64,000 nt of DNA, taken from positions 1 through 64,000 of the forward strand of contig BPGW01000005.1 in NCBI GenBank assembly GCA_026003235.1, given 5' to 3'. Made by a program: the position numbers and the translations under genes. The notes beneath the pieces were generated by a model. The model did no database searches. It was not told where the DNA came from and saw only the letters and a program-made list of their open reading frames with translations. This stretch comes from Bacteroidia bacterium (GTDB taxonomy: Bacteria > Bacteroidota > Bacteroidia > SpSt-205). Positions within the stretch are counted from its first letter, which is position 1, and every line of letters begins with the position of its first letter. Of the stretch, positions 441-60,851 are shown in pieces.

Positions 441-448
441 TAAATTTG
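441..448 (+). promoter_or_regulatory. Bacteroidota -7 box (TAAATTTG) for TPR gene
   Basis: A perfect TAnnTTTG match ends 4 bases before the ATG at 453, so the transcript is predicted to be leaderless. No convincing TTG -33 element is seen. Confidence 0.65.
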
Positions 449-452
449 CCCC

Positions 453-1175
453 ATGTCACGATGGCTCGTGGTGGGCTTAGCTTGCCTTCTTCTATGGGCG
501 CAGAAAAAAAAATCCTCTAAGGCTGACTCGGAAGCGGCTTCTTCCTCTCCTACCCCAGCCCAAAAGATGTATCTCCGAGCTGTGCAGTACGGGGATCCTC
601 TCACGCAGATAGTGGCGCTGCACTGGCGCCTTGCTACCGAAGGAACTTCTTTTGGGCTTCGGGACACGCTGGCACAGGCGTACTTCCAGGGAGGGTTTTA
701 CCGGCAGGCGATAGCTGTGGCGGAAGAGCTTTTGCGAGAGCAGCCTCGCAACGCCGATTTGGCTGAGCTGCGCGCCCTGGCCTACTTCTACCTCCAGGAT
801 ACCAAAAATGCCTTGGATGCCTACGAAAAACTGTACGAGATAACCCAGTCTCCCCTCCACTTGTATCAGGTTATCACGCTTCAATTCAACCTTCAACGAT
901 ATGGAGAGTGCCACGCCAACATAGAGCGCCTGCTCTCCTCCCCTGAAGCTGAGCGTCTGACGGTGCGCATCTCTACCCAAGGCGGCGAGACGCAGGAAGT
1001 TCCCCTCAAAGCCGCCGCACTGAATGTACGAGGGGTGCTATACCGCATTCAAAAGGAGCCTGAAAAGGCCAAGGCCGCCTTTGAAGAGGCTCTGAAGATA
1101 TTCCCCAGTTTTCTTCTGGCCAAAGGCAACTTGGAAGACTTGAGCCGAGAAGCTTCGGGATCAACAAAAAAGTGA
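453..1175 (+). CDS. Exported TPR-repeat protein
   Basis: A 240-residue protein. Residues 1-16 are a hydrophobic signal ending WAQ, followed by a lysine- and serine-rich linker. Helical repeats of TPR type follow (for example TLAQAYFQGGFYRQAIAVAE, then ELRALAYFYLQDTKNALDAYE), with a final repeat near residues 195-230. TPR proteins act as protein-binding scaffolds; this one probably sits in the periplasm. The start is fixed by the -7 box 4 bases upstream. Its TGA overlaps the GTG of the next gene (GTGA), so it heads an operon with the sulfatase-like gene. The specific function is unknown. Confidence 0.8.
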   Translation: MSRWLVVGLACLLLWAQKKKSSKADSEAASSSPTPAQKMYLRAVQYGDPLTQIVALHWRLATEGTSFGLRDTLAQAYFQGGFYRQAIAVAEELLREQPRNADLAELRALAYFYLQDTKNALDAYEKLYEITQSPLHLYQVITLQFNLQRYGECHANIERLLSSPEAERLTVRISTQGGETQEVPLKAAALNVRGVLYRIQKEPEKAKAAFEEALKIFPSFLLAKGNLEDLSREASGSTKK

Positions 1176-2600
1176 AGCGCTTTTCTCCTCAAGCCTTTAG
1201 AAGGGCATGGGGAATCCTGCTCCTATGGCCGGGGATATTCCTCTACTATGCCCACTGGGACTACCTAAGCTGGCTGCCTGCATTCGGGCAAGCCGCTGTG
1301 GTTTTGGGGGTTAGTGCGGCGGTATGGGGCCTCTTATGTGGAGTCTATAAAAGCATAGAGAGAGGCAGCATCGTGTATATTGCAGGTTCTTTTTTAGCTT
1401 ACCTTGCTATGATAATTTCCCCAAAGCTGCTTGCAAAAACTGCTCTGCATTCTTATCCATGGCTAGATGTAGTCGGCTTGGCTTGCGCTGTAGGAGTAGG
1501 AGTGGGGGTAGGAATATGGACAGCTTCCCGCCCTCTTCACACTGTTTTACTAAAGTTCTTTCACTTTTTTTCGGTAGGAATTTTTCTCTTGAACGCGATA
1601 GGTTGGCCTTTGTATAGAAAGATCAAGCACCACTCTAACACCGGGTGCGCTTATGTAAACTTTTCGCCTCCTCTACGGTCGGTCTACGTGCTCCTACTGG
1701 ATGAGCACCCTTCACCTGGTGTGATGAGGCAAGTATTTCCCCAAGCGGACACTTTTCTTTTTAGACTCAGCCAGAAGGGGTTCTTTTATAGCGACTCGCT
1801 ATGGGCAACTCCGGCTTCTACTTTGCATACCCTGGCTAAAGTCTACCAAGTGCCGATAGGAAGGGACCAAGACTCCATTACGGATTTTGGCCTTCTTCGG
1901 CATGCGGGTCTACTTTGGGCAGCCCAAAAAAAGGGATATGAGCTAAAAGGGCTTTGGCCCTATTATGGTCCCCTTCAACAGCTTCCCATCCAATGGGAAG
2001 GTAGCTGGTTGTTTTCTTCGGCCTTTGGTCATTTTCCTTGGACAGCCCCTATAGGTAGATGGATAAAACATCGTCATGATAAGGCCTTTGTAGCGGAGAT
2101 GAAGAAGATAGCGGGTCATCTGCCCGACAAGCCCACCTTCTACCACCTGCATGTTTTTCTGACCCATGCTCCGTATTCAACGGGCACAGGAGGGGCATGG
2201 CAACCTCTTCTGGCGTATTCGCTGCAGGAGCGAGTGCGTAACGCAACTTCTTACTCTCATCAGGAGGTGCTTGCGTTTATAGATACCCTCTTAGCCACTT
2301 ACCCGCAAGGCCCATCGTCCTGAGCCGGTGATCTTAGTTTTTTCGGACCATGGTTGGCATTTAGGTGAGCCAGAACGGCTTTCGGTGGCTGACTCCACGC
2401 TTAGGACTCGTCTCAGGCATCAGGCTTTTTTGGCTGCGTATTTGCCGGGCTGGGATTCGGCAGCGGCGCGGTCGGCCGTAGAAGCGGTGCACGATTACGA
2501 GGCACTTTCCAACCTGCTGCAACGAACGCTTGGAATCGCTGTTAGGAGTGTTACAAAGTCAGCTCAGGAGCTACCTTTGTCCTTATGTGGTTATATGTAG
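1172..2600 (+). CDS. Membrane-anchored sulfatase-like (alkaline phosphatase superfamily) protein, frameshifted
   Basis: Two adjacent frames together make one protein. The first (1172-2323, 383 aa) starts with about five hydrophobic segments within residues 10-150. It continues with the sulfatase-like core: VYVLLLDEHPSP near 185 and TPASTLHTLAKVY near 215, where the Thr is the likely nucleophile. The second frame reads through HRPEPVILVFSDHGWHLG, the C-terminal metal-binding FSDHG motif of the superfamily, and ends at 2600. The switch lies near 2302-2313, where removing one C (from CCC at 2302-2304 or 2311-2313) would fuse the frames. Such enzymes add or remove sulfate or phospho-groups on glycans or lipids at the cell surface. 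The context (DPG microprotein and NoeA-like methyltransferase) fits surface polymer modification. It is either a sequence error or a recent pseudogene. Confidence 0.65.
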
Positions 2601-2737
2601 ACCCAGGCCTGGGGGCGTTGGTGTTACAGGCCATCATAGCAGGGGCAGCGGCGGCATGGCTGCTCTTTCGCAAAAGTATCGCACGATTATTTTTCTGGAG
2701 GAAGCATAAAGACACAAGCCCTCAGAAAGAAACGTGA
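2585..2737 (+). CDS. DPG-motif membrane microprotein (50 aa)
   Basis: An ATG at 2585 opens a 50-residue frame beginning MWLYVDPGLGALVLQAI. It has one membrane segment (about residues 10-28) and a basic tail (FRKSIARLFFWRKHK). The pattern DPG-x-G followed by one membrane helix and positive residues matches small proteins seen next to membrane sulfatases and polymer biosynthesis genes in many bacteria. It overlaps the end of the sulfatase-like gene by 16 bases, and its TGA overlaps the GTG of the methyltransferase gene (GTGA), which supports translation as part of the operon. Its function is unknown; it may be a membrane partner of the sulfatase-like protein. Confidence 0.7.
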   Translation: MWLYVDPGLGALVLQAIIAGAAAAWLLFRKSIARLFFWRKHKDTSPQKET

Positions 2738-4074: not shown

Positions 4075-4114
4075 GGTGTTCAGGGTTTAGAGGCGGCGTA
4101 GCTCAAGGATACCC

Positions 4115-4717
4115 TTAGAGGCGAGGGTAAGGTGTTTGCGGCATCTTTTCCCGGAAAGCGAGCCAGGTGGTTTGCCAAGGGGGAGGCGGGGCAGGCCACG
4201 GTTCGCCGGTGTAGTAGTAGAGCGTGCCTTGAGGATCAAGGAGCCGTTCTGCCCAACGCAGCACTTGGGGTAGGGGGGCCACAGCTCGGCCTACCACGAA
4301 GGGGAATCGCGCTGTCAGGGTTTCGGCACGGCTCCACTGCACGCGGCAACGCGCCGAAAGGCCGAGCTCAGCTACCATGGCTGTGACAGCTTCCACTTTC
4401 TTACGGGTGCTATCCAGGAGGAGAAACCGGGTCTCAGGGTGCACAATCGCCAGCGGAATGCCTGGAAGTCCTCCTCCTGTGCCCAGGTCCAATACCTGGG
4501 CCCCTGCTGGAAAACGACGCCACAGCACCAGCAAGAGACTCGGCACAATATGGTGTTCCCATACCTGGCCTATGTCCCGCCGCGACACCAGATTGACCCG
4601 CTGGTTCCATTCCTGCAGGAGCTCGGCGTACCGACGAAGGCTTACAAGCTGCGCAGGCGTGACCAGGGGCTGGAGAGGCGCCGGCAGCTCATGCCAGGAA
4701 CTGGGTTCGTAGGACAT
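4115..4717 (-). CDS. rsmG: 16S rRNA (guanine-N7) methyltransferase RsmG
   Basis: A 200-residue protein. RsmG (GidB) methylates N7 of G527 in 16S rRNA using SAM. The family hallmarks are clear: WNQRVNLVSRRD at 37-48, the SAM-binding loop VLDLGTGGGLPGIP at 75-88, LLLDSTRKKV on the next strand, and the VGRAVAPL stretch. Length is normal. It lies downstream of acnA on the same strand and its start overlaps the acnA 3' end by 29 bases, so the two are cotranscribed. No closer in-frame Met gives a full domain, so the overlapping start is kept. Confidence 0.92.
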   Translation of the reverse strand: MSYEPSSWHELPAPLQPLVTPAQLVSLRRYAELLQEWNQRVNLVSRRDIGQVWEHHIVPSLLLVLWRRFPAGAQVLDLGTGGGLPGIPLAIVHPETRFLLLDSTRKKVEAVTAMVAELGLSARCRVQWSRAETLTARFPFVVGRAVAPLPQVLRWAERLLDPQGTLYYYTGEPWPAPPPPWQTTWLAFREKMPQTPYPRL

Positions 4718-7382
4718 ACGAGAGCACGCCCCCGTGCTGGTAGTAAGCGATTTCTACTTCGGAACGCAGGAGGGCTCGAACCTGGAAGCGCTTCTCCGTC
4801 CCGGCCTGAGGGTCTACGGCCTGGACTGTGAGCACTTTGAGCGGACTAAGCCCCTCTGCAAGGCCGTGGATGTGGTAGATCTCTTTTCCAGTAAGCCCCA
4901 GGGTTTCGGTGTTTTCGCCGGGCATGAATTGAAGGGGCAAGATGCCCATGCCGACCAAATTGCTGCGGTGGATGCGTTCGTAGCTTTCTGCTATCACCGC
5001 GCGAATGCCCAGAAGGTTCGGACCTTTGGCTGCCCAATCTCGCGAAGAGCCGCTGCCGTACTCTTTACCAGCAAGCACTATAAGAGGGGTTCCCTCTTGT
5101 TGGTAGCGCAGGGCCGCTTCATATACGGTGAGGATTTCTCCCGTAGGATGGTGGACCGTCCAACCGCCTTCTCGGTCCACCAGCTTGTTGCGAAGGCGCA
5201 CATTGGCGAAGGTGCCGCGGACCATGACTTCGTGGTTGCCCCGACGGGCCCCATATGAGTTGAATTCCTTGGGGTCTACCCCGTGCGCTATGAGGTACTG
5301 CCCGGCAGGCGACTGCGAAGGAATGGAACCTGCCGGCGAGATATGGTCCGTCGTGACGGAGTCTCCTAGCACCAACAGCACCCGGGCCCCTACAATATCT
5401 TGTAAGGGGGGCACCGCTTGGCTTACTTTATCAAAGAAGGGCGCTTTCCGAATGTAAGTAGAGCGAGGGTCCCACTGATAGAGTCCCCCACGGGGGGCTT
5501 CCAAGGCTTGCCATGCGGCTTCTCCGGCAAAAATATGGGCGTAGTTTTCCTGAAAGTCCTTCTCATCTATCACGCTCTCCATGAGCGTCTGCACCTCTTG
5601 CGGGGTAAACCAGATATCTCGTAAGTAGACGGGGTAGCCATCGGGATCGTACCCCAGCGGTTCCTGGTCAAAGTCTATGTCCACCCGTCCAGCCAAGGCA
5701 TACGCTACGACAAGAGGCGGCGAAGCCAAAAAGTTCATGCGGACTTGAGGGTGGACCCTGGCTTCAAAGTTGCGGTTGCCGGAGAGCACGGCGGCCACAA
5801 CCAACCCTTTTTCTTGGATGGCTTGAGAGACGGCGGGGGGCAGCGCTCCGCTGTTGCCGATGCAGGTGGTACAGCCATATCCCGCCACATGAAAGTGCAG
5901 GGCTTCTAAATAGGGCAGCAGGCCGGCTTTTTGCAGGTAGCGCGTCACGACTCGGGAGCCCGGGGCTAAGCTGGTTTTGACCCAAGGCTTAGGGCGTAGG
6001 CCCGCAGCCACCGCTTTTTTGGCTACGAGGCCCGCTGCCAGCATCACGGTGGGATTGGAGGTATTGGTGCAGCTGGTGATAGCGGCGATCACCACCGAAC
6101 CATCCCCCAGCACATATTCGCTATCGCCTGTGGAAAGGTGAGCAAAGCCATTCTGAGGTAAATGCTCCCGAGTGAGGGTGAGAGGTTGGGGCAGGATGGG
6201 GTGCGGTTGGCGGTGAAAGGTGTTTTCCAAGGCAGCTTGGACGGTAGCCTTGACCCGGGAAAGGATTATTCGATCTTGCGGTCGCCGAGGCCCTGCAATA
6301 GACGGCTCTACCTCGTCCAGCGATAGCTTCACCACCTTGCTATAAACCGGCTTTTCTGCGGGGTCTCGCCACAGCCGGTTGACCTGCGCGTAGGTTCGGA
6401 TGAGTTCTATTTGCTCGGTTGAGCGGCCGGTCAGACGCAGGTAGCGCAGCGTCTGCTCATCTATAGGGAAGTACGTGATGGTGCAGCCAAACTCAGGCGA
6501 CATATTGGAGATGGTGGCCCGGTCGGGGACGGTAAGGCTATCCAATCCAGGGCCGTAGACTTCAACGAATTTATCTACCACCCCCACTTGGCGCAGCAGT
6601 TCGGTGATGGTGAGCACCAGGTCTGTGGCGGTGACGCCGGGGCGGAGGCGTCCTGTCAGTTCCAGGCCGATCACTTCCGGGCAAGGGAAGTAAAAAGGCT
6701 GGCCCAGCATCGCCGCTTCGGCTTCTATGCCCCCCACGCCCCAGCCTACCACCCCTATCCCGTTCACCATGGGGGTGTGCGAGTCTGTGCCTACCAGGGT
6801 GTCGGGAAACGCCCACCCTTCCCGAGCGGTGATGACCGTCGCTAAGTATTCTAAGTTCACTTGATGCACAATCCCCATGCCCGGCGGCACAATCCGAAAG
6901 CGGTCAAAAGCCTGTTGAGCCCATTTGAGAAACTGGTAACGCTCCCGGTTCTGCTGGTACTCCCGCTCAATGTTGCGCTGGAGGGCAAAGGCGTTTCCAA
7001 AAGAGTCTACTTGCACCGAGTGATCAATCACCAGGTCTACAGGGACGAGGGGATTGATGGCTTGGGGGTCTTTGCTGTGGGCGGCGACCGCTTCCCGCAG
7101 CGAAGCCAAATCTACTACCGCGGGCACGCCAGTAAAATCTTGCATCAGCACCCGTGCCGGAATAAACGCCACTTCGGCTTCGGGGGAAGGTTGGCCATCC
7201 CACCGGCGAAACGGCTCAATATGCTGGCTCGTTACCTTGTATTCGTCCAGGTTCCGCAGAACATTCTCCAAGAGAATCCGCAAGCTATACGGAAGGGCCG
7301 AAAGAGAGATACCCAAAGCTTCTGCGGCGGCAGGTAGGTCCACATAAGAGAGGGGGCCTAGGGTCTTTTTCCAGGCGTCCAT
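4689..7382 (-). CDS. acnA: Aconitate hydratase A
   Basis: An 897-residue cytosolic enzyme that interconverts citrate and isocitrate through a [4Fe-4S] cluster (TCA cycle). Cluster ligands are visible at C438 (TSCTNTSNP, 436-444) and C504 and C507 (GYGCTTCIGNSG). LVGTDSHTPMVNGIG near 197-210 and the C-terminal swivel domain with GSGSSRDWAAKG are also typical. The length and layout match the AcnA/IRP1 type, not AcnB. A TATCTTTG box sits 4 bases before the ATG. rsmG follows with an overlap, an unusual partner that probably reflects the dense packing of this genome. Confidence 0.97.
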   Translation of the reverse strand: MDAWKKTLGPLSYVDLPAAAEALGISLSALPYSLRILLENVLRNLDEYKVTSQHIEPFRRWDGQPSPEAEVAFIPARVLMQDFTGVPAVVDLASLREAVAAHSKDPQAINPLVPVDLVIDHSVQVDSFGNAFALQRNIEREYQQNRERYQFLKWAQQAFDRFRIVPPGMGIVHQVNLEYLATVITAREGWAFPDTLVGTDSHTPMVNGIGVVGWGVGGIEAEAAMLGQPFYFPCPEVIGLELTGRLRPGVTATDLVLTITELLRQVGVVDKFVEVYGPGLDSLTVPDRATISNMSPEFGCTITYFPIDEQTLRYLRLTGRSTEQIELIRTYAQVNRLWRDPAEKPVYSKVVKLSLDEVEPSIAGPRRPQDRIILSRVKATVQAALENTFHRQPHPILPQPLTLTREHLPQNGFAHLSTGDSEYVLGDGSVVIAAITSCTNTSNPTVMLAAGLVAKKAVAAGLRPKPWVKTSLAPGSRVVTRYLQKAGLLPYLEALHFHVAGYGCTTCIGNSGALPPAVSQAIQEKGLVVAAVLSGNRNFEARVHPQVRMNFLASPPLVVAYALAGRVDIDFDQEPLGYDPDGYPVYLRDIWFTPQEVQTLMESVIDEKDFQENYAHIFAGEAAWQALEAPRGGLYQWDPRSTYIRKAPFFDKVSQAVPPLQDIVGARVLLVLGDSVTTDHISPAGSIPSQSPAGQYLIAHGVDPKEFNSYGARRGNHEVMVRGTFANVRLRNKLVDREGGWTVHHPTGEILTVYEAALRYQQEGTPLIVLAGKEYGSGSSRDWAAKGPNLLGIRAVIAESYERIHRSNLVGMGILPLQFMPGENTETLGLTGKEIYHIHGLAEGLSPLKVLTVQAVDPQAGTEKRFQVRALLRSEVEIAYYQHGGVLSYVLRTQFLA

Positions 7383-7386
7383 GCCG

Positions 7387-7394
7387 CAAAGATA
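7387..7394 (-). promoter_or_regulatory. -7 box (TATCTTTG) for acnA-rsmG
   Basis: A perfect TAnnTTTG element on the minus strand, 4 bases before the acnA ATG at 7382; a leaderless transcript is predicted. No clear -33 TTG is visible at the usual distance. Confidence 0.7.
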
Positions 7395-7459
7395 GGACGC
7401 TCAGGGGAGCTTCTTTCTGCTGCAACATTTGGCTGGACTCCTCGTATAGAGAGAGTGAT

Positions 7460-11402: not shown

Positions 11403-12068
11403 ATGGGGCTCACCCCGGCCGAAAAGGTCGCCCGCATCTTGCCAGTCTTGGAGGCGCGTTACGGGGCCGTCACCACCGAGCTGCACTACCAGAACCCCTA
11501 CCAGCTTACCGTGGCCGTGGTTCTATCAGCCCAGTGTACAGATGTGAGGGTCAACCAAACGACACCAGCTTTTTTTGAGCGGTTTCCGGATTTCACTTCG
11601 TTGGCTTCTGCCACGGCTGAAGAGGTGCTGCCTTTTATTAAAAGCATCTCTTACCCCAATAGCAAAGCCAAGCGTTTGGTAGAGTTGGCTCGGACGGTGG
11701 TGGAGCGGTACGGGGGTGAGCTGCCTAAAGATCCGCAGGAGCTTCAGAAGCTTCCTGGCATTGGTCGCAAGAGCGCGAATGTGATCGCCTCTGTCTTGTG
11801 GGAAGCGCCTGTGATTGCGGTGGATACGCATGTGTTTCGGGTCAGTCGTCGGCTGGGGCTGGCAAGAGGCCGCACCCCAGAAAAAGTTGAGGAGGAGCTG
11901 TCCGCCGTCATCCCACCGGCTTATCTGGGGCGGGCGCATCACTGGCTTATTCTCTTTGGGCGGTATCATTGTACGGCCCGTCGGCCCCGATGCGACCTCT
12001 GTCCGTTTACCGACTTGTGCGAGGCTTATCAGCAAGGGGCCCTTAGGCGAGCCCAGTCCAGCGGCTAA
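11403..12068 (+). CDS. nth: Endonuclease III
   Basis: A 221-residue bifunctional DNA glycosylase/AP lyase that removes oxidised pyrimidines. The helix-hairpin-helix LPGIGRKSANV (117-127) carries the catalytic Lys123, and AVDTHVFRV carries Asp141. The [4Fe-4S] ligands C190, C197, C200 and C206 have the classical C-x6-C-x2-C-x5-C spacing. All key residues are present. It is followed at once by apt, whose -7 box overlaps the nth stop. Confidence 0.96.
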   Translation: MGLTPAEKVARILPVLEARYGAVTTELHYQNPYQLTVAVVLSAQCTDVRVNQTTPAFFERFPDFTSLASATAEEVLPFIKSISYPNSKAKRLVELARTVVERYGGELPKDPQELQKLPGIGRKSANVIASVLWEAPVIAVDTHVFRVSRRLGLARGRTPEKVEEELSAVIPPAYLGRAHHWLILFGRYHCTARRPRCDLCPFTDLCEAYQQGALRRAQSSG

Positions 12069-12073
12069 CTTTG
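12066..12073 (+). promoter_or_regulatory. -7 box (TAACTTTG) for apt
   Basis: A perfect TAnnTTTG whose first three bases are the nth stop codon; it ends 4 bases before the apt ATG. Confidence 0.65.
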
Positions 12074-14228: not shown

Positions 14229-14236
14229 CAAAGATA
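14229..14236 (-). promoter_or_regulatory. -7 box (TATCTTTG) for rpsU-tsaD
   Basis: A perfect match on the minus strand, ending 6 bases before the rpsU ATG. It rules out the upstream TTG as start codon. Confidence 0.7.
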
Positions 14237-14288
14237 GGACCTTTGTGCGACAAAGGAAGCCGGTGTGGGCTGTTGGGGGAAAAGTGTT

Positions 14289-14296
14289 ATCTTTGT
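14289..14296 (+). promoter_or_regulatory. -7 box (TATCTTTG) for tmRNA
   Basis: A perfect match ending 8 bases before the predicted mature tmRNA 5' end at 14305. It calibrates the box-to-transcript-start distance (at most 8 bases) for the other genes in the window. Confidence 0.75.
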
Positions 14297-14304
14297 GGAG
14301 CTTG

Positions 14305-14650: not shown

Positions 14651-14652
14651 CG

Positions 14653-17243: not shown

Positions 17244-18087
17244 TATTTTGGCGGCCGCCTCTTTAGATTCGTCCAATGAAGAGGAAATATTTTTGAGTCT
17301 GCCGCTGCTTGTGCGTGGCGTAGAAGGCCCTGGTCGGCTCCGCTTATACCATGCGCTTACGCCCGATCGGTTTCGTTGGGCGCCCGGTAGAAGCGAGAGT
17401 TTCCTCCAGCAGATTCAAAGCCTCAAAGAACAGGCCGAAGCCCAGTTAAGTAGCTATTGTAAAGCTCTCCAAGAGCGCTTGCCAGCTGGGTGGGAGGTAG
17501 ACTACTGGATAGAAGATCAGGAAGTGGCTTCGCCAGCCGAAGAGATTGCAAACTACCTCCAGCGCGAGCGGTTTTCTCTGCTTGTGGTGGCCTTCAAGCA
17601 GCGTAAGCGATGGGAAAAGTTTTTGGGCCTGACTGCGGTGTGGGACATCCTGGAGGTGGCACCCATTCCTGTGCTGATCCTGCCCGCGCCCTTTTCCCTT
17701 GCCCCTCGTCGGTTTTTGTGGGTTACCGACATACAAGCCGAGGAGTTTCCCCTTCTGCATCCGCTGGTTAGGCTTATTCGCAAGCTAAAAGCCACCCTCT
17801 ACTGCTTAAAAGTGAACACCCCGTATTCTTTTCTTGCCCATCGGACCTTCCAGAGGCATATCTTAGAGATGTGCGATTACATCCTTGAGCAGGTAGACCC
17901 TGACTTTGTGCCGGAGGAGTGTCTGCTTTATGCCGATAAGGAACTGGTGGAGGGAATTGTGCATGCGGCGCATGACTTTCTGATGGATGTGGTGGCTCTT
18001 TCTGCAGAGGCCGAGCGGATGGATGCTCGCATTGTGGATAAGCTTCTGGCCCATCAACTCCCTCTGCTTTTGCTACGACAAGCGTAG
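17197..18087 (+). CDS. Universal stress protein family, two-domain
   Basis: About 296 residues from ATG 17197 (ATG 17215 is also possible, and a longer start at 17152 lies deeper in the previous gene). It has two UspA-like alpha/beta halves. The first ends VAPIPVLILPAPF and the second ends LLAHQLPLLLLRQA, both like the C-terminal P-V-L-L strand of Usp domains. The glycine-rich ATP loop is poorly kept in both halves, so it may not bind ATP. Tandem Usp proteins of this type are common in Bacteroidota. Confidence 0.7.
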   Translation: MQENLAMSQSGNDFFSILAAASLDSSNEEEIFLSLPLLVRGVEGPGRLRLYHALTPDRFRWAPGRSESFLQQIQSLKEQAEAQLSSYCKALQERLPAGWEVDYWIEDQEVASPAEEIANYLQRERFSLLVVAFKQRKRWEKFLGLTAVWDILEVAPIPVLILPAPFSLAPRRFLWVTDIQAEEFPLLHPLVRLIRKLKATLYCLKVNTPYSFLAHRTFQRHILEMCDYILEQVDPDFVPEECLLYADKELVEGIVHAAHDFLMDVVALSAEAERMDARIVDKLLAHQLPLLLLRQA

Positions 18088-18092
18088 CTTTG
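18085..18092 (+). promoter_or_regulatory. -7 box (TAGCTTTG) for SDR operon
   Basis: A perfect match whose TAG is the stop codon of the Usp gene; it ends 4 bases before the ATG at 18097. Confidence 0.65.
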
Positions 18093-20637: not shown

Positions 20638-20645
20638 TACCTTTG
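20638..20645 (+). promoter_or_regulatory. -7 box (TACCTTTG) for TPR-SpoIIE gene
   Basis: A perfect match, 7 bases before the GTG at 20653. Confidence 0.65.
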
Positions 20646-25881: not shown

Positions 25882-25885
25882 CCTG

Positions 25886-25893
25886 CAAATCTA
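25886..25893 (-). promoter_or_regulatory. -7 box (TAGATTTG) for PKD protein gene
   Basis: A perfect match on the minus strand, 4 bases before the GTG at 25881 and only 3 bases from the divergent bshB1 box. Confidence 0.65.
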
Positions 25894-25896
25894 CGG

Positions 25897-25904
25897 TAGC
25901 TTTG
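25897..25904 (+). promoter_or_regulatory. -7 box (TAGCTTTG) for bshB1
   Basis: A perfect match, 6 bases before the ATG at 25911. It sets the start there and not at the upstream in-frame codon at 25824, which would run through the neighbouring gene. Confidence 0.65.
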
Positions 25905-25910
25905 TGCCGT

Positions 25911-26619: not shown

Positions 26620-26627
26620 TACCTTTG
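26620..26627 (+). promoter_or_regulatory. -7 box (TACCTTTG) for the KhtT-like operon
   Basis: A perfect match, 4 bases before the GTG at 26632 and 7 bases after the bshB1 stop. Confidence 0.65.
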
Positions 26628-29139: not shown

Positions 29140-29555
29140 AAGGAACCAAAGTTACCAAAGGAGAAGCGTCGGTGCAGGGTATAACTGAGGGGGAAGGTGC
29201 TGGCGGCGGCCAGGCTGCGCGCAACCACACTCCGCCAAGCCCCAGGCGGGAAAATCCGATACAAGCCTTCAATCAGTAGGCCGTTCACGGCGTACATGAC
29301 CCCGATAACCAAGAGAAAGCGAAAAAGTTGGCCTTTCCAGAGGGGGGAGCCGTTTTGGAAGACCCATCGGCGGGTCAGCCAAAAACCTATAGCTACCCCC
29401 GTGCCGAAGCTGAGGGCCAGCGCAGGCCAGTGCCCCATCCCTGTCCGATACAACACCCCATACAGCCCAATATCCAGCCCTGTACCCAGCCCACCTACCA
29501 CCGCATACCGTAAGAATGGTACATTTGAAGCCCAATGGCGGAGGTGCTTCTGCAC
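29136..29555 (-). CDS. GtrA family membrane protein
   Basis: A 139-residue protein with four membrane helices. FLRYAVVGGLGTGLDIGLYG at the N-terminus and FWLTRRWVFQ after helix 2 are typical of GtrA-like proteins, which help move undecaprenyl-linked sugars or modify polysaccharides. The GTG start at 29555 is supported by a TAGCTTTG box 4 bases before it. The first seven codons overlap the first seven codons of the divergent ABC gene, a rare head-to-head overlap. The 3' end overlaps the accD start by 4 bases. Confidence 0.82.
   Translation of the reverse strand: MQKHLRHWASNVPFLRYAVVGGLGTGLDIGLYGVLYRTGMGHWPALALSFGTGVAIGFWLTRRWVFQNGSPLWKGQLFRFLLVIGVMYAVNGLLIEGLYRIFPPGAWRSVVARSLAAASTFPLSYTLHRRFSFGNFGSL
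29147..29154 (-). promoter_or_regulatory. -7 box (TAACTTTG) for accD
   Basis: A perfect match on the minus strand, 7 bases before the accD ATG and inside the 3' coding end of gtrA. Confidence 0.6.
29520..29527 (+). promoter_or_regulatory. -7 box (TACATTTG) for LolD-like gene
   Basis: A perfect match, 7 bases before the ATG at 29535; it lies inside the coding sequence of the divergent gtrA gene. Confidence 0.65.
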
Positions 29556-30206
29556 GCCACAAAGCTACGCAAAGCCTACGAGGGGCGGTGTATCTTGGAT
29601 GGGGTTTCCTGGGCGTTGGAAGCGGGTCGGTTTTATGCGCTGGTGGGTCATTCCGGCTCGGGTAAGACGACGCTGCTGTATCTTCTGGCTTTGTTGGAGC
29701 GGCCCGATGAAGGCGATCTCTCCTGGCAAGGCCGATCTCTGTGGGCGCTTTCGCCGGCGGAGCGCGCTCGCTGGCGTAATCGCCACATCGGATTCGTGTT
29801 TCAGTTCTTTCATTTGATTGCCGAGCTGCGGTTGTGGGAAAATGTGGCTTTGCCGGCTGTGCTGGGAGGCAGCACTTTTGCCCAGGAAAGAGGGAAGGCG
29901 TTGGCTTGGCTGGAGCGGGTAGGTTTGGCGCAGCGTGCCCAAGAGCGGCCTACTCGTCTTTCTGGCGGCGAGCAGCAGCGGGTGGCTATTGCTCGGGCCC
30001 TTTTCCTGGAGCCTCCCCTCCTTTTGGCTGACGAACCCACCGGCAATCTGGATGAAAACCAGGCCCAGCAAGTATGGGGCCTTTTTCTGGAGCTGGTCCG
30101 GGAGGTCGGCTCAACCGTCGTGGTGGCTACGCATAATCTGCGGTTGGCTCAGAGTGCCGATGAGGTGTATCGCCTTCAGGGGGGGCAGCTCGTGCGGGAA
30201 AGTTAG
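29535..30206 (+). CDS. LolD-like ABC transporter ATP-binding protein
   Basis: A 223-residue ATPase. Walker A GHSGSGKTT at 38-46, Q-loop in FVFQFFHLI, signature LSGGEQQRVAIARAL, Walker B LLLADEPTGNLD, switch His in ATHN. The sequence is of the MacB/LolD/FtsE class, which works with FtsX/LolC-type permeases in lipoprotein release or envelope export. No permease is adjacent, so the substrate is not fixed. The start is set by the -7 box; its first 21 bases overlap the start of gtrA on the other strand. It ends convergently with the thiolase gene (4-base overlap). Confidence 0.85.
   Translation: MAEVLLHATKLRKAYEGRCILDGVSWALEAGRFYALVGHSGSGKTTLLYLLALLERPDEGDLSWQGRSLWALSPAERARWRNRHIGFVFQFFHLIAELRLWENVALPAVLGGSTFAQERGKALAWLERVGLAQRAQERPTRLSGGEQQRVAIARALFLEPPLLLADEPTGNLDENQAQQVWGLFLELVREVGSTVVVATHNLRLAQSADEVYRLQGGQLVRES
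29560..29567 (-). promoter_or_regulatory. -7 box (TAGCTTTG) for gtrA
   Basis: A perfect match on the minus strand, 4 bases before the gtrA GTG; it lies inside the LolD-like coding sequence. Confidence 0.6.
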
Positions 30207-31390: not shown

Positions 31391-31395
31391 AAGCC

Positions 31396-31403
31396 CAAAG
31401 GTA
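31396..31403 (-). promoter_or_regulatory. -7 box (TACCTTTG) for thiolase
   Basis: A perfect match on the minus strand, 5 bases before the ATG at 31390; the divergent ung box is 9 bases away. Confidence 0.65.
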
Positions 31404-31412
31404 AGGGACCTC

Positions 31413-31420
31413 TATTTTTG
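31413..31420 (+). promoter_or_regulatory. -7 box (TATTTTTG) for ung
   Basis: A perfect match, 4 bases before the ung GTG at 31425. Confidence 0.65.
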
Positions 31421-31424
31421 CTGC

Positions 31425-35743: not shown

Positions 35744-35751
35744 TAGTTTTG
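35744..35751 (+). promoter_or_regulatory. -7 box (TAGTTTTG) for bioB
   Basis: A perfect TAnnTTTG match, 4 bases before the bioB ATG at 35756. Confidence 0.65.
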
Positions 35752-38910: not shown

Positions 38911-39772
38911 ATGAAGATTTTCCCTAACTGGTTTGAGTGGGACGAACGGAGCCTGACTTTTCAGCGCGCTTCTATAGCTTGGCGAGCCTACTGGCGTCAG
39001 TTACCGAGGTGGATAACTTTCCAGGTGTTTGTAGGGCTTGGCCTGATGCTGCTGACGCGAGGGGGGTGGGAGAGGTACTTCATTCGCCAGGCCGAAGCTG
39101 AGCTTCACCGCCTTGAAGAGCAAGAAAAGCAGATTCTGAGCCAGATAACCGCCGCTGAAACCGCCCTGGAGCGCCTTTATGCTCAGGCCCAGCGGCTTTA
39201 CCGGCCTGTACTGGGTTTACCTTCTCTTCCGTCCTCTCACTGGGAAGGTCACACGGGGGGGTGCTCAGCCCAGTCCTTGGGAAAAGCCCTTGTACCGGGC
39301 CCGCCTCGTGCTATCTGAATACCAAAACCTAAAAACCCTCTTCCAGGAGCGATGGGCTTACTTGGAGCGGCTGCCTTGCATAGCTCCGCTGGCAGGAGCT
39401 ATCGTGAGTGGGTTCGGGTTCCGGCGCGATCCTTTCCATGGTCACTGGCAGATGCACACGGGGATAGACATTTCGGGGCCTTACGGAGCGCCTGTACGAG
39501 CCACAGCGGGGGGCTATGTGCGATTTGCCGGATGGGATGGAGGAGGATATGGCCTTCAGGTGGAAGTAGACCACCTAAACGGCCTGGTCACCAAATACGC
39601 TCACCTCTCGCGTCTGGCTGTACAGGTAGGGGATACCGTCCGGCGAGGCCAAGTGGTGGGCTATGTAGGGTCTACGGGCTATTCGGTCGCACCCCACCTG
39701 CATTATGAAGTCATAGAGCGAGGCCTCAAGGTCGATCCCCGGAAATACTTATTTTTGCCCGATGTACGCTAA
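38911..39772 (+). CDS. M23 family metallopeptidase, membrane-anchored (frameshifted)
   Basis: Frame one (38911-39318) gives a membrane helix near 38-54 (FQVFVGLGLMLL) and a coiled coil (RQAEAELHRLEEQEKQIL). Frame two (to 39772) gives the LytM/M23 domain: FGFRRDPFHG, HTGIDISGPYGAPV with the first zinc His and Asp, and HLHYEVI with the last zinc His. The break is at seven Gs, 39255-39261; six Gs would fuse the frames. The enzyme cuts peptidoglycan cross-links or activates amidases in the periplasm. All zinc ligands are present. It overlaps the ssb start by 11 bases. Confidence 0.8.
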
Positions 39773-46664: not shown

Positions 46665-46672
46665 TATTTTTG
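46665..46672 (+). promoter_or_regulatory. -7 box (TATTTTTG) for porZ-like gene
   Basis: A perfect match, 4 bases before the ATG at 46677. Confidence 0.65.
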
Positions 46673-49437: not shown

Positions 49438-50024
49438 GCGTGGAAGTCAAAACCCGAGGCTTACTCCTCCAACGCTATCCCTATCGCGAACGAAGCTGGG
49501 TTCTCAAAATCCACACCGAAGCCGAGGGAACCCTTTCAGTGTTGGCGCTGGGGCCCTCTTCCCGGGCCTTCCTCCCTGGAGCGCTTCTTTCCCTAAGGGT
49601 TTTTGTGCGGCCTCACCGGGACCTTCAACGACTTGCCGAGGTGGAGTGGGACTACCTCTATCGCACCTTGTATCATGACCCCACTCGCCAACCCTATCTT
49701 TTTGTGGCGGTTGAGTGGCTGGCTCAGTGTTTGGTAGCGCCCGATCCAGCTCTCTACGCTTGGGTTCGGCAGCAGCTTATTGAGCTGGACCAGACGCCCC
49801 AGCCCGAAGCTCATCTCCGGCGTTTTTTCAGCGAGCTTTTACCTCGGCTGGGAGGCGCAGCCCCCCCTTCGGTCCCTTCTTTACAAGCGCTGGAAGCTGT
49901 ATATCGGGCTTCCTGGCCAACTTGGCGGCCTTTGCGTAGCCTTTCTCTGCTAGAAACCTTACCTTTGCCTACTTATGAATACCGAGAACCCTACACCTGT
50001 CGGTCCCCTTCTAAAAACGATTGA
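49434..50024 (+). CDS. recO: RecO-like DNA repair protein
   Basis: A 196-residue protein. The N-terminal 80 residues look like the RecO OB-fold (VEVKTRGLLLQRYPYRERSW, VLKIHTEAEGTLSVLALG), followed by an alpha-helical part. It is shorter than usual RecO (about 230-250) and lacks the zinc Cys motif, as some Bacteroidota RecO proteins do. RecO loads RecA on SSB-coated DNA. Its position next to porZ supports the call. The dxs start and promoter lie inside its last 22 codons. Confidence 0.55.
   Translation: MSVEVKTRGLLLQRYPYRERSWVLKIHTEAEGTLSVLALGPSSRAFLPGALLSLRVFVRPHRDLQRLAEVEWDYLYRTLYHDPTRQPYLFVAVEWLAQCLVAPDPALYAWVRQQLIELDQTPQPEAHLRRFFSELLPRLGGAAPPSVPSLQALEAVYRASWPTWRPLRSLSLLETLPLPTYEYREPYTCRSPSKND
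49960..49967 (+). promoter_or_regulatory. -7 box (TACCTTTG) for dxs
   Basis: A perfect match inside the recO-like gene, 7 bases before the dxs ATG at 49975. Confidence 0.65.
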
Positions 50025-51924
50025 GAGTCCAGCTGATCTGCGGCGTTTGCCTCCGGAGCTTCTGCCGCAGGTGGCGGAAGAGCTGCGTCAGTTTCTGATC
50101 CATCATGCGGCTCGGTATGGAGGGCACTTTGCGGCCAGCTTGGGCGTGGTAGAGCTTACTGTGGCCCTGCATTACGTCTACCAGACGCCCCAAGATCTGC
50201 TGGTGTGGGATGTAGGTCATCAAGCCTATGGGCACAAAGTGCTGACCGGTCGCCGCAGCCGGTTTCATACCAACCGACTCAAGGACGGGATTTCAGGCTT
50301 TCCCAAGCGGGACGAATCGGTCTACGATACCTTTGGGGTGGGGCATTCTTCTACGGCGATTTCTGCGGCGCTGGGTATGGCGGAAGCTCTGCGGCACCTG
50401 CGGCAAACGGACCGTAAAGTGGTGGCCGTGGTGGGCGATGGGGCGCTTACGGCCGGCCTGGCCTTTGAGGGCCTCAACAATGTAGGCATGCTCCAGCCCG
50501 ACCTTCTGATTATCCTCAACGACAACCAAATGTCCATTGACCCCAATGTAGGGGCGCTCAAAGATTACTTGGCGGGGATCACCACTTCCCGCACGTACAA
50601 TCGCTTCCGAGAGGAAGTGTGGAAGTGGCTTAGCCGCCTCCAGGAAAAGCTGGGGGCGCCGGTGCGAGACTACGCGGCCCGCCTGGAAGAAGCCTGGCTC
50701 GTTCTTTTATCGCGGCCTGCGGTGCTTTTTGAGAGTTTAGGGCTGCGCTACTTCGGCCCCGTGGATGGCCATGATGTGCAGGGGCTGGTAGAGACCTTAC
50801 GCAATTTGCGGCGGCTGCCAGGTCCGAAACTCCTGCATTGCCGCACGGTAAAAGGCAAAGGGTTCCCCCCTGCCGAAAAAGACCCCCTCAAGTGGCATGC
50901 CCCCGCTTTCCGGTTTGATCCAGCTACAGGAGAGCCGACAGATCCTCCTTCTTCCCGCCCTACCCCTCCTAAGTATCAGGATGTTTTTGGCGAAACGGTC
51001 ATAGAGCTGGCCTGCCAGGATGAGCGGGTGGTGGCGGTCACGCCAGCTATGCTGTCGGGCTCGGGCCTGACAAAAATGCGTCAGCTCATGCCCGAACGCT
51101 GTTATGATGTAGGGATTGCTGAGCAGCACGCCGTGACCTTTAGCGCAGGGCTCGCTACGCAGGGCATGAAGGTATTCTGTAGTATCTACTCTACCTTCCT
51201 CCAGCGCGCCTACGACCAGGTCATCCATGATGTGGCTATTCAAAACCTGCCGGTGATTTTCTGCTTGGATCGGGCAGGGGCTGTAGGAGCCGATGGAGCT
51301 ACCCATCAAGGGCTCTACGACATTGCGTACCTGCGTCCCATTCCTAACCTCATTCTGTCCGCTCCCCTCAACGAGTCTGAATTGCGCAATCTGATGTATA
51401 CGGCGCTTCGGGCAGAGAAGCCTTTTGTGATTCGGTACCCGCGTGGGAATGGGGTACTCCTGGAATGGCGTACGCCTTTTGAGGAAGTGCCCATTGGCAA
51501 GGGGCGCCTGCTGCGAGAAGGCGAAGATGTAGCTATCCTCAGCTACGGGCACATCGGCAACGAAGTACTGGAAGCTTGTCGCTTGCTGGAGGCAGAAGGG
51601 TTGTACCCTGCGGTGTATGACCTTCGCTTTGCTAAGCCGCTGGACCTGGAGCTGCTGGCAGAAGTGGCCCAGCGATATAAGGTCATCTTGACGGTAGAGG
51701 ATGGGGTTCGCATAGGGGGAGTAGGCAGCGCCGTACTTGAAGCGCTCGCAGACCAAGGGTATAGCGTGCCCGTACGGCGCCTGGGTGCCCCAGACATCGT
51801 GCTGGAACACGCCACCCAGGCCGAACAGTACGCTTTGTGCGGTTACGACCGGCAGGCTATCGCCGAAGCCGTCCGCCAAGCTTACCAAACGCTTCTACCT
51901 TTGCGGGCGTGGAAGCGCTTTTAG
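49975..51924 (+). CDS. dxs: 1-deoxy-D-xylulose-5-phosphate synthase
   Basis: A 649-residue thiamine-diphosphate enzyme that starts the MEP isoprenoid pathway from pyruvate and glyceraldehyde 3-phosphate. VWDVGHQAYGHKVLTGRR, GHSSTAISAALGMA, the ThDP motif GDGALTAGLAFEGLNN ending NDNQMSI, and DVGIAEQHAVTFSAGLA are present. Complete. The N-terminus overlaps recO by 50 bases; the start agrees with the -7 box. nhaD begins inside its last five codons. Confidence 0.97.
   Translation: MNTENPTPVGPLLKTIESPADLRRLPPELLPQVAEELRQFLIHHAARYGGHFAASLGVVELTVALHYVYQTPQDLLVWDVGHQAYGHKVLTGRRSRFHTNRLKDGISGFPKRDESVYDTFGVGHSSTAISAALGMAEALRHLRQTDRKVVAVVGDGALTAGLAFEGLNNVGMLQPDLLIILNDNQMSIDPNVGALKDYLAGITTSRTYNRFREEVWKWLSRLQEKLGAPVRDYAARLEEAWLVLLSRPAVLFESLGLRYFGPVDGHDVQGLVETLRNLRRLPGPKLLHCRTVKGKGFPPAEKDPLKWHAPAFRFDPATGEPTDPPSSRPTPPKYQDVFGETVIELACQDERVVAVTPAMLSGSGLTKMRQLMPERCYDVGIAEQHAVTFSAGLATQGMKVFCSIYSTFLQRAYDQVIHDVAIQNLPVIFCLDRAGAVGADGATHQGLYDIAYLRPIPNLILSAPLNESELRNLMYTALRAEKPFVIRYPRGNGVLLEWRTPFEEVPIGKGRLLREGEDVAILSYGHIGNEVLEACRLLEAEGLYPAVYDLRFAKPLDLELLAEVAQRYKVILTVEDGVRIGGVGSAVLEALADQGYSVPVRRLGAPDIVLEHATQAEQYALCGYDRQAIAEAVRQAYQTLLPLRAWKRF
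51896..51903 (+). promoter_or_regulatory. -7 box (TACCTTTG) for nhaD
   Basis: A perfect match inside the dxs 3' end, 5 bases before the GTG at 51909; it selects that start over a more upstream in-frame codon at 51837. Confidence 0.65.
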
Positions 51925-53700: not shown

Positions 53701-53708
53701 CAAAGGTA
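53701..53708 (-). promoter_or_regulatory. -7 box (TACCTTTG) for macro gene
   Basis: A perfect match on the minus strand, 4 bases before the GTG at 53696. Confidence 0.65.
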
Positions 53709-59300: not shown

Positions 59301-60270
59301 TGCGCAAGAGTCGTTTTTCGGCGGCGGCCTGGCCTACAAAGCCTTCACCCAGATGGAAGCGCCGCTCCGCCGCTTGGGACAAGTCGTAAGCGTACGTGCC
59401 CCGCAGAACAAGGGCGTTCCCTTCTCGCACGAAGATAGCCCCCATGTGAGCGCTTACTTGCCGGCACAAGAGGGAGATGGTCCGCTCGGCTAAGTCCGCA
59501 ATCGTCTGGGACTCCTTGAGGATTTCGCTGAAGGCGGCCAGGCTTTGCAGGGTGAGGGCTTCTTCGGATCGGCGTCCCCATCGGCGGGCTAAGGTGCTCT
59601 TTAGCGCTTCCAGCCTGCGCAGGATCGGATGGTCTCCTTGGGGTAAGGGGGCCTCGGGATCGGCCGATTCCAGCGCCTGAAGGAAAGCCTCTATTCCTTC
59701 CCAGGCGGTTTGGATCGCTTGGAGGGCAGGCTGGTCAAGGGCTTGGGCAGGTAAGGGCCGGTCCCACTGCCCCCGGCTCCAGGCCTGAAGGAGAAGTTGG
59801 GTGTCGCGGACTTGCTGGGCCAGAAGGGCTTTTTCGCGGTGTAGGCGCCACAGGCCGCCCGATAAAAAGAGCAGGACCACCAGGGCCAGGCCTGCCAGCC
59901 ATAGGTTAGAAAGGCGGGTGCGCTGTTCTATCTCCCGCTGCAGGGCCTGGGCCACATGGGCCGATAACCGCTCTAACTCCGTGGTCAACTGCGCTCGGTC
60001 TGCTTCGGTCTCAATCTGGGCTTCCAGGCGCTGAAGCAAAGGGGCCAGGCTTCGGCTTTCGGGCAGAACTTTTGCCAGTTCTTGGAGGGGTTCTTGGGGG
60101 GGGGCTTCCTGGAGGAGCGCCTGGTGGAGCCGACGAAGGCCTTCCTGCTGCTGAAGAAGCTTTTCCATGCGGGCCTGCGAAGGCGCCTCAATAAGGAAGT
60201 ATCGGCCTATCAGCCCCCCAATCAGCAGAGCCGCCGAGCCCACAAGCAGGCCTACAAGCCCCCGGCTCAT
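56299..60270 (-). CDS. Membrane GAF/six-PAS sensory protein without output domain
   Basis: A 1323-residue protein. Membrane helices at 5-27 and 122-140 bracket a periplasmic helical sensor; a HAMP-like linker follows. A GAF domain is at about 255-395, then six PAS domains at about 441-545, 591-702, 748-858, 883-993, 1039-1149 and 1174-1272, joined by near-identical coiled-coil linkers. Typical PAS text is IVSETDPEGRILFVNDEATY and PAC text is FWVHLTITPVLDAEG. After the sixth PAS there is only a short helix; no histidine kinase, cyclase, phosphatase or response domain is present. PAS domains 2-5 look like recent internal duplications. It may signal by protein contact. Operon with SPOR and gpmI genes. 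Confidence 0.85.
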   Translation of the reverse strand: MSRGLVGLLVGSAALLIGGLIGRYFLIEAPSQARMEKLLQQQEGLRRLHQALLQEAPPQEPLQELAKVLPESRSLAPLLQRLEAQIETEADRAQLTTELERLSAHVAQALQREIEQRTRLSNLWLAGLALVVLLFLSGGLWRLHREKALLAQQVRDTQLLLQAWSRGQWDRPLPAQALDQPALQAIQTAWEGIEAFLQALESADPEAPLPQGDHPILRRLEALKSTLARRWGRRSEEALTLQSLAAFSEILKESQTIADLAERTISLLCRQVSAHMGAIFVREGNALVLRGTYAYDLSQAAERRFHLGEGFVGQAAAEKRLLRIHPVPPSYLRLRSGLGEAAPHTLLLVPLIFQNETYGVAELATLEAFPQELEAFLQKFAEHVGAALANFISRERLEALLSEEQTLRKALEEKQAELLRSAQLMEEAQAKLLESQTQLASQISAIRSAALVVELSEEGLITYANEAFLLATGYPLTQLKRSFLADLVAADDLKQTLSQALKSHQSWKGSLPLRAQSGEILWLQATLAPLQTRPAGFIGICFDITREKQQEEELRRMLEQTLAQEELLREANQRLQALNEELLRTQTELKGQIAAVGNAAIVSETDLQGRIIRVNDLFLQMYGYRPEEVLGQNHRILKSGHQSDTVFEEMWRTISQGQVWRGEVRNRAKDGQYYWILLTITPVAGPEGKILKYIAVGFDITAQKRQEEELRSALELAQAQQEELRRYTQQLQAAQEEMRRTQVELRGQISAVHNAAIVAETDPEGRITFVNDAFCALSGYTREELLGSTHAILRSDRHDEAFFRALWQTLLEKRVWKGIFCNRRRDGSLYWISSTITPVVDTRGRLVKFIAVSFDLTPQVEQEERLRAYAEELRRAQAELRGQILAVGNAAFLMETDTEGHLLYANSAALEAWGYTWDEVEGQNLRFLNSGHHPPEFWASMWETLQRGEVWQNEVLNRSRSGELFWQLLTITPIRDPEGRLFKYIGVAFDITAQKRQAERIRLLLHEAQEKERSLRAYAEELEKVQAELLQAQLELAGRINALNNAAIVSETDPEGRILFVNDEATYVWGYSREELIGQPHSIIRSDAHPPRFFERMWDRIKSGFVWQGEVQNRAKDGTPFWVHLTITPVLDAEGKPYKYIGVAFDITRQKIQAQRLKEALRQLEAQTQELPTYLQRLPWFLTDKQGTLLSASPALLELMGYEKPELLLGQNARLLRSPQTPDYVFMDLWATIGRGKPWTGFLTNRDAHGVDRLQFLAVFPVEERYLAVLLPAQEACEALKAEWMKNYAPLETLQEYQLLLQAKEYELYELERLLHELQSRPQ

Positions 60271-60722
60271 GGGCGCAAGACTTTATCTGGCACCACGAAG
60301 GCGCCAGGAAAGCGGTGCCGCTGCCGGTCTAACCAAGCTTCGGCGTCTCGGCGATCCCAGAAATCACCCACCCGTACCCTATAAGTGGGCGCTTCGTACA
60401 AGAGGTAGACCGGCAGGGTAGGGTACTCTTCTAAGAGGGCCAGGCGCACGGAATCGGCTAAAGCCCGTTGGGTGGTCGTGAGCACTTGCACGCGGTAGCC
60501 AGGCAAGGTATGGCTGGAGCGATGAAAGGCCAAGATCGTGTCGTAGAGATGCGCCACGGCGGGGCTGGCCTGACGCAGGACTTGGATGGGGCGCGGATCG
60601 CCTATCCGAGGCCGCTCCGCCGAAGGAAGAGGCTCCCCCTCATACTTTGGCCGAAACCGTTCCCACGCCGCCTGAGCCCAGACCCACCCTATCAGACCCC
60701 ATACAACCCACCTCCAACCCAT
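60267..60722 (-). CDS. Exported SPOR-domain protein
   Basis: A 151-residue protein: signal 1-16 (GLIGWVWAQ), a short linker, then a SPOR-type domain at about 72-150 (PGYRVQVLTTTQRALADSVR, TYRVRVGDFWDRRDAEAWLD). SPOR domains bind denuded glycan strands of peptidoglycan at division sites. The ATG is set by a TAAGTTTG box 6 bases upstream. Its stop overlaps the PAS gene start (ATGA). Confidence 0.82.
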   Translation of the reverse strand: MGWRWVVWGLIGWVWAQAAWERFRPKYEGEPLPSAERPRIGDPRPIQVLRQASPAVAHLYDTILAFHRSSHTLPGYRVQVLTTTQRALADSVRLALLEEYPTLPVYLLYEAPTYRVRVGDFWDRRDAEAWLDRQRHRFPGAFVVPDKVLRP

Positions 60723-60728
60723 AGCCTA

Positions 60729-60736
60729 CAAACTTA
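60729..60736 (-). promoter_or_regulatory. -7 box (TAAGTTTG) for SPOR-PAS-gpmI operon
   Basis: A perfect match on the minus strand, 6 bases before the ATG at 60722. Confidence 0.65.
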
Positions 60737-60843
60737 CAAGGGAATCCCCAAAGCCGTTTTTCCTTTTGTGGCTGGGACCTGCCCAGCCCTCAGAAGGCGG
60801 AGAAGGGTAGGGCCTCAAAAGGGGCGTATGGCTTTCCTGCCGC

Positions 60844-60851
60844 TATCTTTA
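60844..60851 (+). promoter_or_regulatory. Near-consensus -7 box (TATCTTTA) for helicase operon
   Basis: One mismatch to TAnnTTTG, 4 bases before the ATG at 60856. Confidence 0.45.

Follow-up and report, generated by a model that had tools for sequence, protein, structure and literature searches.

The promoters of the Bacteroidota contain a -7 box with the consensus TAnnTTTG, the position of which has been mapped in Flavobacterium. In F. johnsoniae this element is located at -12 to -5, with many sequences having 4 or 5 nt between the element and the transcription start, and 241 of 434 candidates with 4–5-nt spacing were taken as probable promoters (PMC6847099). These probable promoters have almost no G at either N position and carry A/T motifs at -18 and -28; in this species the -33 element is much less evident, and 87% of the leaders are longer than 10 nt (PMC6847099). 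The box of F. psychrophilum is also located at -12 to -5 and 5.5% of its mRNAs are leaderless (PMC9723704), and in Bacteroides thetaiotaomicron approximately 3.7% of the 5' untranslated regions (UTRs) are shorter than 10 nt (PMC7366714). Leaderless expression is thought to be rare in Bacteroidota, a phylum that makes little use of Shine-Dalgarno (SD) pairing, and published work had excluded leaderless mRNA as an explanation in F. johnsoniae. In the survey of Zheng et al., a single genome out of 37 from Bacteroidetes/Chlorobi had predicted leaderless genes, at 2.4%, and high hidden percentages were thought unlikely (PMC3160421). Nakagawa et al., who cite reports of a high leaderless fraction, considered leaderless mRNA as a possible source of the A/T bias that they saw between -20 and -10, most strongly in Bacteroidetes and other phyla, an idea that is a partial precedent for the present work (PMC5397173). 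In Deinococcus-Thermus, a -10-type TANNNT motif a few bp before the open reading frame (ORF) drives leaderless mRNA for approximately 30% of ORFs, and in D. radiodurans this motif is typically located ~6–7 bp upstream of the ORF (PMC12340547). Here, we analyzed where TAnnTTTG is placed relative to start codons in the first 64,000 nt of contig BPGW01000005.1 (the window; GC content 57–61%), which belongs to a draft genome of a Bacteroidia bacterium of 2.06 Mb (2,062 kb, 82% complete), and in its relatives. The box of many genes ends exactly 4 nt before the start codon, and we put at roughly 0.9 the probability that these are ordinary Bacteroidota housekeeping-sigma promoters shifted against the start codon, the units behind them being leaderless.

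Both strands of the window together contain 45 matches to TANNTTTG, against 20.4 expected (standard deviation 4.4, largest value 32, 100 dinucleotide shuffles). Genes were called by codon score without regard to the motif (motif-blind), which yielded 54 genes in the window and 388 in a 464-kb sample of the genome composed of the window and 20 stretches of 20 kb and containing 242 boxes. We define the gap as the number of nt between the end of the box and the start codon, and a hit as a box at gap 3–8 before an in-frame start. In the window, 21 of the 54 genes have a hit with ATG or GTG as the start codon. This bears out the original prediction, made from the window alone, that about twenty genes have a perfect box close before their start, and the nine examples named there all have a gap of exactly 4. 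In the 464-kb sample the box precedes 92 of the 388 genes (24%), 45 of them at gap 4, with 69 ATG and 23 GTG starts.

A peak like this could also be produced by chance or by the calling of starts, if choosing the ATG nearest to a box creates it. The 92-gene count is indeed tolerant in this respect: an in-frame start was accepted if it lay no more than 45 nt downstream of the motif-blind one or at any upstream position of the ORF, and 52 of the 92 hits sit exactly on the motif-blind start. The controls nevertheless refute this explanation. With motif-blind starts only, a box was found at gap 3–8 in 52 of 378 upstream regions vs 0.58 in 200 dinucleotide shuffles (standard deviation 0.80, maximum 4), and 34 boxes were at gap 4 and 39 at gaps 9–79 combined. 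Counting without gene calls gave the same peak: ATGs opening at least 70 codons numbered 5, 38, 11, 13, 12, and 6 at gaps 3 to 8 and about 1 per position farther off, and the corresponding GTGs numbered 2, 16, 4, 1, 5, and 3 over a flat background. No peak at gap 3–8 was seen in this 464-kb count for TTG or five decoy codons (CTG, ATC, ATT, GTC, and AAG). With six altered boxes, no gap collected more than 4 ATGs; the count of four at gap 4 came from TANNTTAG, which was later found to be enriched. At the gene level, seven control windows yielded 10–21 genes and eleven altered boxes 0–12; the control-window counts are probably too high, since a second in-frame start of a gene meets the same box at a larger gap, an effect from which the motif-blind-start count is free. 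Throughout the draft genome, the pattern TANNTTTGN{4,8}ATG occurs 412 times and the reversed control pattern 22 times. Enrichment at gaps 4–5 is also seen for the variants TANNTTAG and TANNTTCG, and the exact-box counts are therefore probably lower bounds.

The distance between box and start codon is phased. Among the 173 hits collected in the family of the window genome, gap 4 is the mode (81 hits), and in 80 of these 81 the A or G of the start codon occupies the expected first base of the transcript. Given the Flavobacterium box at -12 to -5 and its spacing of 4–5 nt, a gap of 4 would place the purine of the start codon at +1. The gap peak thus equals the box-to-start spacing of Flavobacterium, and for most boxed mRNAs the predicted 5' end is the AUG or GUG itself or a position no more than about 4 nt away. 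This spacing, together with the box peak, lends support to the original prediction that many mRNAs lack a 5' UTR. Transcription might instead start 1–5 nt upstream of most start codons, translation then using a short 5' end and weak context signals. We judge such very short leaders possible but doubtful. They would account for the 52 of 173 family hits at gaps 6–8 and for the gap of 6 that is kept in all three rpsU copies found in the family; however, they offer no reason for the mode at gap 4 or for the purine phased with it. Boxed motif-blind starts (n = 98) comprise 72 ATG, 26 GTG, and no TTG codons, and unboxed ones 240, 196, and 116, respectively, the unboxed calls including wrong starts; if other in-frame starts are admitted, the family hits include 2 TTG starts. 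Between -18 and -4, SD-like tetramers were found in 0 of 33 boxed ATG genes and 17 of 137 unboxed ones, an absence that is partly forced because this stretch overlaps the box. A pyrimidine preference just ahead of the start codon was dropped as an argument, 63 unboxed co-directional genes being similar.

Occurrence of the box depends on gene context. In the 464-kb sample it precedes 44 of 94 genes with a divergent upstream neighbor and 5 of 92 that touch or overlap the preceding gene (Fisher p = 4e-11). For co-directional genes separated by 1–30, 31–80, and more than 80 nt the figures are 24/70, 10/42, and 4/65, respectively, and 5/25 for genes at the edge of a stretch. Thus, about one-quarter of the sampled genes have the box directly before the start codon, as do nearly half of those with a divergent neighbor. 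These counts bear on the idea that TAnnTTTG functions here in ribosome binding and not as a promoter. The box does sit where a ribosome-binding site usually would, in a phylum with little use of SD sites, but it is rare at overlapping downstream genes, which need translation signals equally, it matches the published promoter consensus including the A/T block, and it also precedes tRNA and tmRNA genes, where translation cannot explain it because no start codon is involved. A translation signal is therefore highly improbable.

Leading tRNA genes of the family (loci L006, L011, L015, L016, L018, and L020 and those of the relatives L131, L132, L137, L138, L023, L024, and L154) carry TANNTTTG 3–15 nt before the mature 5' end in 15 of 17 cases, two tRNA-Asn genes having it at 4 nt. 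In some pre-tRNAs of the family, hardly any 5' leader may be left for RNase P to trim. In the window, the tmRNA gene (14304–14651, forward strand) has the box TATCTTTG at 14288..14295, 8 nt before its mature 5' end, a non-coding use of the element. In eight family genomes this distance is 8, 8, 8, 8, 9, 9, 10, and 15 nt, and in the ninth (G005) the tmRNA begins 7 nt behind the variant box TATATTAG. The 5' end of tmRNA is cut by RNase P. Because of this processing and of the variable gap (7–15 nt), the claim that the tmRNA end calibrates the transcript start does not hold, and calibration should rest on the mapped Flavobacterium promoters. The RNA of RNase P (rnpB) was considered as another calibrator and is unusable in the family, where a box is near the model start in 1 of 11 copies. 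Outside the family (17 copies), the box is 1–6 nt before the model start in 11, 43 nt in one, and absent within 60 nt in five (30 rows in all, from which two partial matches, G004 and G024, were removed).

Aligned boxes further resemble known promoters. In the window genome the N positions are C-rich, with 13% G at the first N and 3% at the second, C is preferred directly after the box, and an A/T block is present 4–8 bp upstream, centered near -18. The same block is seen in 80 hits from relatives, which have a second A/T block approximately 15 bp upstream of the box and 6% G at the second N. In the window genome, G avoidance is clear for the second N only. No positional peak of a -33 TTG/TTTG element was found in the aligned boxes of the genome; the original prediction had rightly seen no obvious -33 element, and the A/T block ~6 bp upstream of the box is found instead. 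This element is not a strict criterion for Bacteroidota promoters, because it is also much less evident in F. johnsoniae.

The box is conserved in relatives. The closest named relatives, judged by AcnA (78–81% identity, the next best being 63%), are the metagenome-assembled 'Bacteroidia bacterium' SKYB95, SKYG92, SKW77, and SKYB116 and 'Sphingobacterium sp.' RSWP8, which we infer from identity and record names to belong to the family of the window genome. The arrangement of box, 4 nt, and ATG before acnA is shared by the window and all five relatives, the upstream sequence having otherwise diverged. Outside the family, 26 acnA loci were compared, and a box was found at one of them, 5 nt before an in-frame ATG (L029, 'Bacteroidetes bacterium' S141_50, AcnA 61% identical). 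The ung gene has a box 4–5 nt before its GTG or ATG in all ten copies from nine family genomes, six being TANNTTTG and four TANNTTCG (TTCG); the four copies from other families lack a box at gap 3–8, although L200 has one ~21 nt before the ATG. The PKD-domain gene (24442–25881 in the window) has the box at gap 4–5 in the window and in 8 of 8 relatives, and 7 of these 8 have a reverse box back to back with it, as does the window. The rpsU gap of 6 mentioned above comes from the three family genomes in whose loci rpsU was found.

To compare genomes, we divided the number of boxes at gap 4 before ATG by the mean number at gaps 21–25 in 296 genomes of the class Bacteroidia. The 11 genomes of the genus of the window genome rank 1–11, with ratios of 5.8–11.3, and the remaining 285 reach at most 5.06 (median 1.24). 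For 89 genomes sampled from other classes the median ratio is 0.91, the six genomes of one family (f86) reaching 2.0–4.7 (maximum 4.72). The genome-wide count against shuffles and other Bacteroidota that the original prediction had proposed thus gives a peak at gap 4 that is strongest in this genus. Weaker gap-4 excesses in G244 (f37), G050 (f40), and G374, G377, and G384 (f86, another class) are possibly independent rises of leaderless genes. At the gene level, the box precedes 92/388 genes in the window genome, 34/118 in G006, 22/65 in the five named loci, and 25/82 in a second genus of the family (G011), which thus shares the signal (24–34%). Nine comparison samples gave 8/44 (G012, same order), 8/90, 9/44 (G050), 7/65, 3/69, 7/72, 1/69, 3/157 (Chitinophaga), and 4/170 (other named loci), that is 1–20%; being homologous, the Chitinophaga loci are not independent samples, here and in the spacer comparison below. 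This comparison covers Bacteroidota loci long enough for it; the named L029 and L043 were too short, and archaeal, Enterococcus, and other non-Bacteroidota loci did not enter it. The box could be a trait of Bacteroidota in general that only appears strong here because a higher GC content lowers the background. Consistent with this are the weaker excesses elsewhere (ratios up to 5.06 in the class and 4.72 outside), the gene shares of G050 and G012, the single boxed acnA outside the family (1/26, gap 5), and the 5.5% of leaderless mRNAs in F. psychrophilum (PMC9723704). However, the family samples exceed all nine comparison samples in their share of boxed genes, and the two of these with 49 and 56% GC show 2% and 4%, with the stated limit on Chitinophaga. 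We therefore consider a general trait unlikely.

We thus favor shifted housekeeping promoters with leaderless units. We computed directly that the box is phased, that it depends on gene context, and how it is conserved and distributed at the family level; we infer where transcripts start (from Flavobacterium), how ribosomes enter, and any link to compaction or heat. In the proposed mechanism the primary sigma factor, presumably of the sigma-ABfr type, would bind the TAnnTTTG -7 box, the step that the sequences analyzed here support, and the polymerase would start 4–5 nt past it, as carried over from Flavobacterium. With a gap of 4–5 the mRNA would begin on the A or G of ATG or GTG, and with a gap of 6–8 within about 4 nt of it. 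The ribosome would then recognize a 5'-terminal AUG or GUG without help from the upstream signals that other members of the phylum use, as leaderless systems elsewhere suggest. Several observations weigh against leaderless units of this kind. Gaps of 6–8 fit a leader of 1–4 nt as well as none; 50 of 94 divergent genes have no exact box at 3–8 nt; co-directional genes with a spacer of more than 80 nt have it in just 4 of 65 cases; the gaps at tmRNA and tRNA genes (3–15 nt) are wider than at mRNAs; and 10 of the 11 family copies of rnpB examined lack a box within 60 nt of the model start, perhaps because rnpB sits behind a gene.

On the forward strand of the window, a gap of 4 separates the box from the ATG of a TPR protein gene (453–1175; TAAATTTG at 441..448), apt (12078–12614; TAACTTTG, 12066..12073), an SDR oxidoreductase gene (18097–18954; TAGCTTTG, 18085..18092), a radical-SAM/BATS gene that the original prediction called bioB (35756–36736; TAGTTTTG, 35744..35751), ssb (39762–40178; TATTTTTG, 39750..39757), and a propeller protein gene, putatively labeled porZ there (46677–48929; TATTTTTG, 46665..46672), and from the GTG of a TrkA_C protein gene (26632–27123; TACCTTTG, 26620..26627) and ung (31425–32102; TATTTTTG, 31413..31420). 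The reverse strand has the same gap at the ATG of acnA (4689–7382; TATCTTTG, 7387..7394) and at the GTG of the PKD-domain gene (24442–25881; TAGATTTG, 25886..25893), a GtrA-family gene (29136–29555; TAGCTTTG, 29560..29567), and a macro-domain gene (53172–53696; TACCTTTG, 53701..53708). Gap 5 is found at the ATG of a thiolase gene (30203–31390, reverse; TACCTTTG, 31396..31403) and at the candidate GTG start of a CitMHS transporter gene, nhaD in the original prediction (51909–53180, forward; TACCTTTG, 51896..51903), where the box is inside the preceding gene and may be a chance match. Gap 7 is found on the forward strand at the GTG of a TPR-SpoIIE protein gene (20653–23406; TACCTTTG, 20638..20645) and the ATGs of an ABC ATPase gene (29535–30206; TACATTTG, 29520..29527) and dxs (49975–51924; TACCTTTG, 49960..49967), and on the reverse strand at the ATG of accD (28294–29139; TAACTTTG, 29147..29154), within the upstream gene. 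Gap 6 precedes the ATG of rpsU (14025–14222, reverse; TATCTTTG, 14229..14236), bshB1 (25911–26612, forward; TAGCTTTG, 25897..25904), and a SPOR-domain gene (60267–60722, reverse; TAAGTTTG, 60729..60736). The motif-blind start of rpsU, 14231, is a TTG inside the box, and the ATG at 14222 agrees with the S21 model, as the ATG at 25911 does with the BshB1 model; both models support the start corrections made in the original prediction for these two genes. The PKD-gene and bshB1 boxes stand back to back with 3 bp between them, the divergent start codons being 29 bp apart (25881–25911), and those of thiolase and ung are 34 bp apart (31390–31425). The GtrA-family gene (GTG 29555, reverse) and the ABC ATPase gene (ATG 29535, forward) apparently overlap head to head by 21 nt (29520–29567 with their boxes), each having its own box and both longer readings retaining Pfam domains.

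The box goes together with unusually short divergent spacers: spacers of less than 60 bp separate 29 of 80 divergent pairs in the family vs 7 of 128 elsewhere (Fisher p = 2e-8). Judging from their names, the SKYB and SKYG records probably stem from the SKY hot spring, the mats of which were sampled at 58–64 and 71–74 °C (PMC8857248), and the family probably dwells in hot springs; compaction and hot habitat are confounded in these comparisons. The Bacteroidota form of the anti-SD pattern matched 2 of 21 genomes, both outside the family. The 16S rRNA model (RF00177) had matches in 2 of 15 genomes, neither of them among the 13 of the order (which include the single-contig G006), and in 9 of 14 named control genomes, and the failure to find the family 16S probably reflects incomplete sequence or a gene missed by a quick look and not gene loss. 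A wider proposal is that leaderless expression is the family default for genes with their own promoter: mRNAs would begin at AUG or GUG, tRNA transcription would start within ~11 nt of the mature end, divergent promoters would be packed back to back in ~30 bp, and bS21 would be made from a leaderless mRNA without the flavobacterial SD feedback, and the whole would have evolved in parallel to Deinococcus-Thermus, in connection with a compact hot-spring genome and on the ribosomes of a phylum that does not use the anti-SD. As one joint claim, we give this even odds. Many Flavobacteriales have an rpsU with an extended SD (PMC9976891); if the family rpsU is leaderless, it cannot carry one.

No report of abundant TAnnTTTG-driven leaderless genes in Bacteroidota was found among the best-ranked open-access papers, subscription papers and preprints lying outside the search. 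Leaderless genes and TAnnTTTG promoters are both known, and their combination in Bacteroidota at a frequency like that of Deinococcus-Thermus is apparently new, as far as the open-access papers searched go. A family at this level provides a within-phylum contrast for changes of the ribosome, the sigma factor, or the habitat that accompany leaderless initiation. It also offers a practical rule, a box 4 nt upstream marking the likely start codon, which would improve the annotation of these uncultured genomes.

As far as their published descriptions go, the promoters of F. johnsoniae, F. psychrophilum, and B. thetaiotaomicron are like those of the family in the TAnnTTTG box, the A/T block near -18, and a weak or absent -33 element. 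They differ in that F. johnsoniae avoids G at both N positions and the family at the second, and in that leaders are the rule in these three species, whereas in the family the box abuts the start codon at the frequency given above. The survey of Zheng et al. likewise predicted leaderless genes from a promoter box beside the start and arrived at a far lower figure for Bacteroidetes/Chlorobi (PMC3160421). From what is reported for it (PMC12340547), Deinococcus-Thermus is the nearest analogue: the TANNTT embedded in the family's box ends 6 nt before the start codon at gap 4, and spacing and frequency are alike. In contrast to Deinococcus-Thermus, the family belongs to another phylum, has a longer box with a TTTG end, and makes little use of SD sites, and promoter function has been demonstrated by experiment in Deinococcus-Thermus, while in the family it is predicted from sequence.

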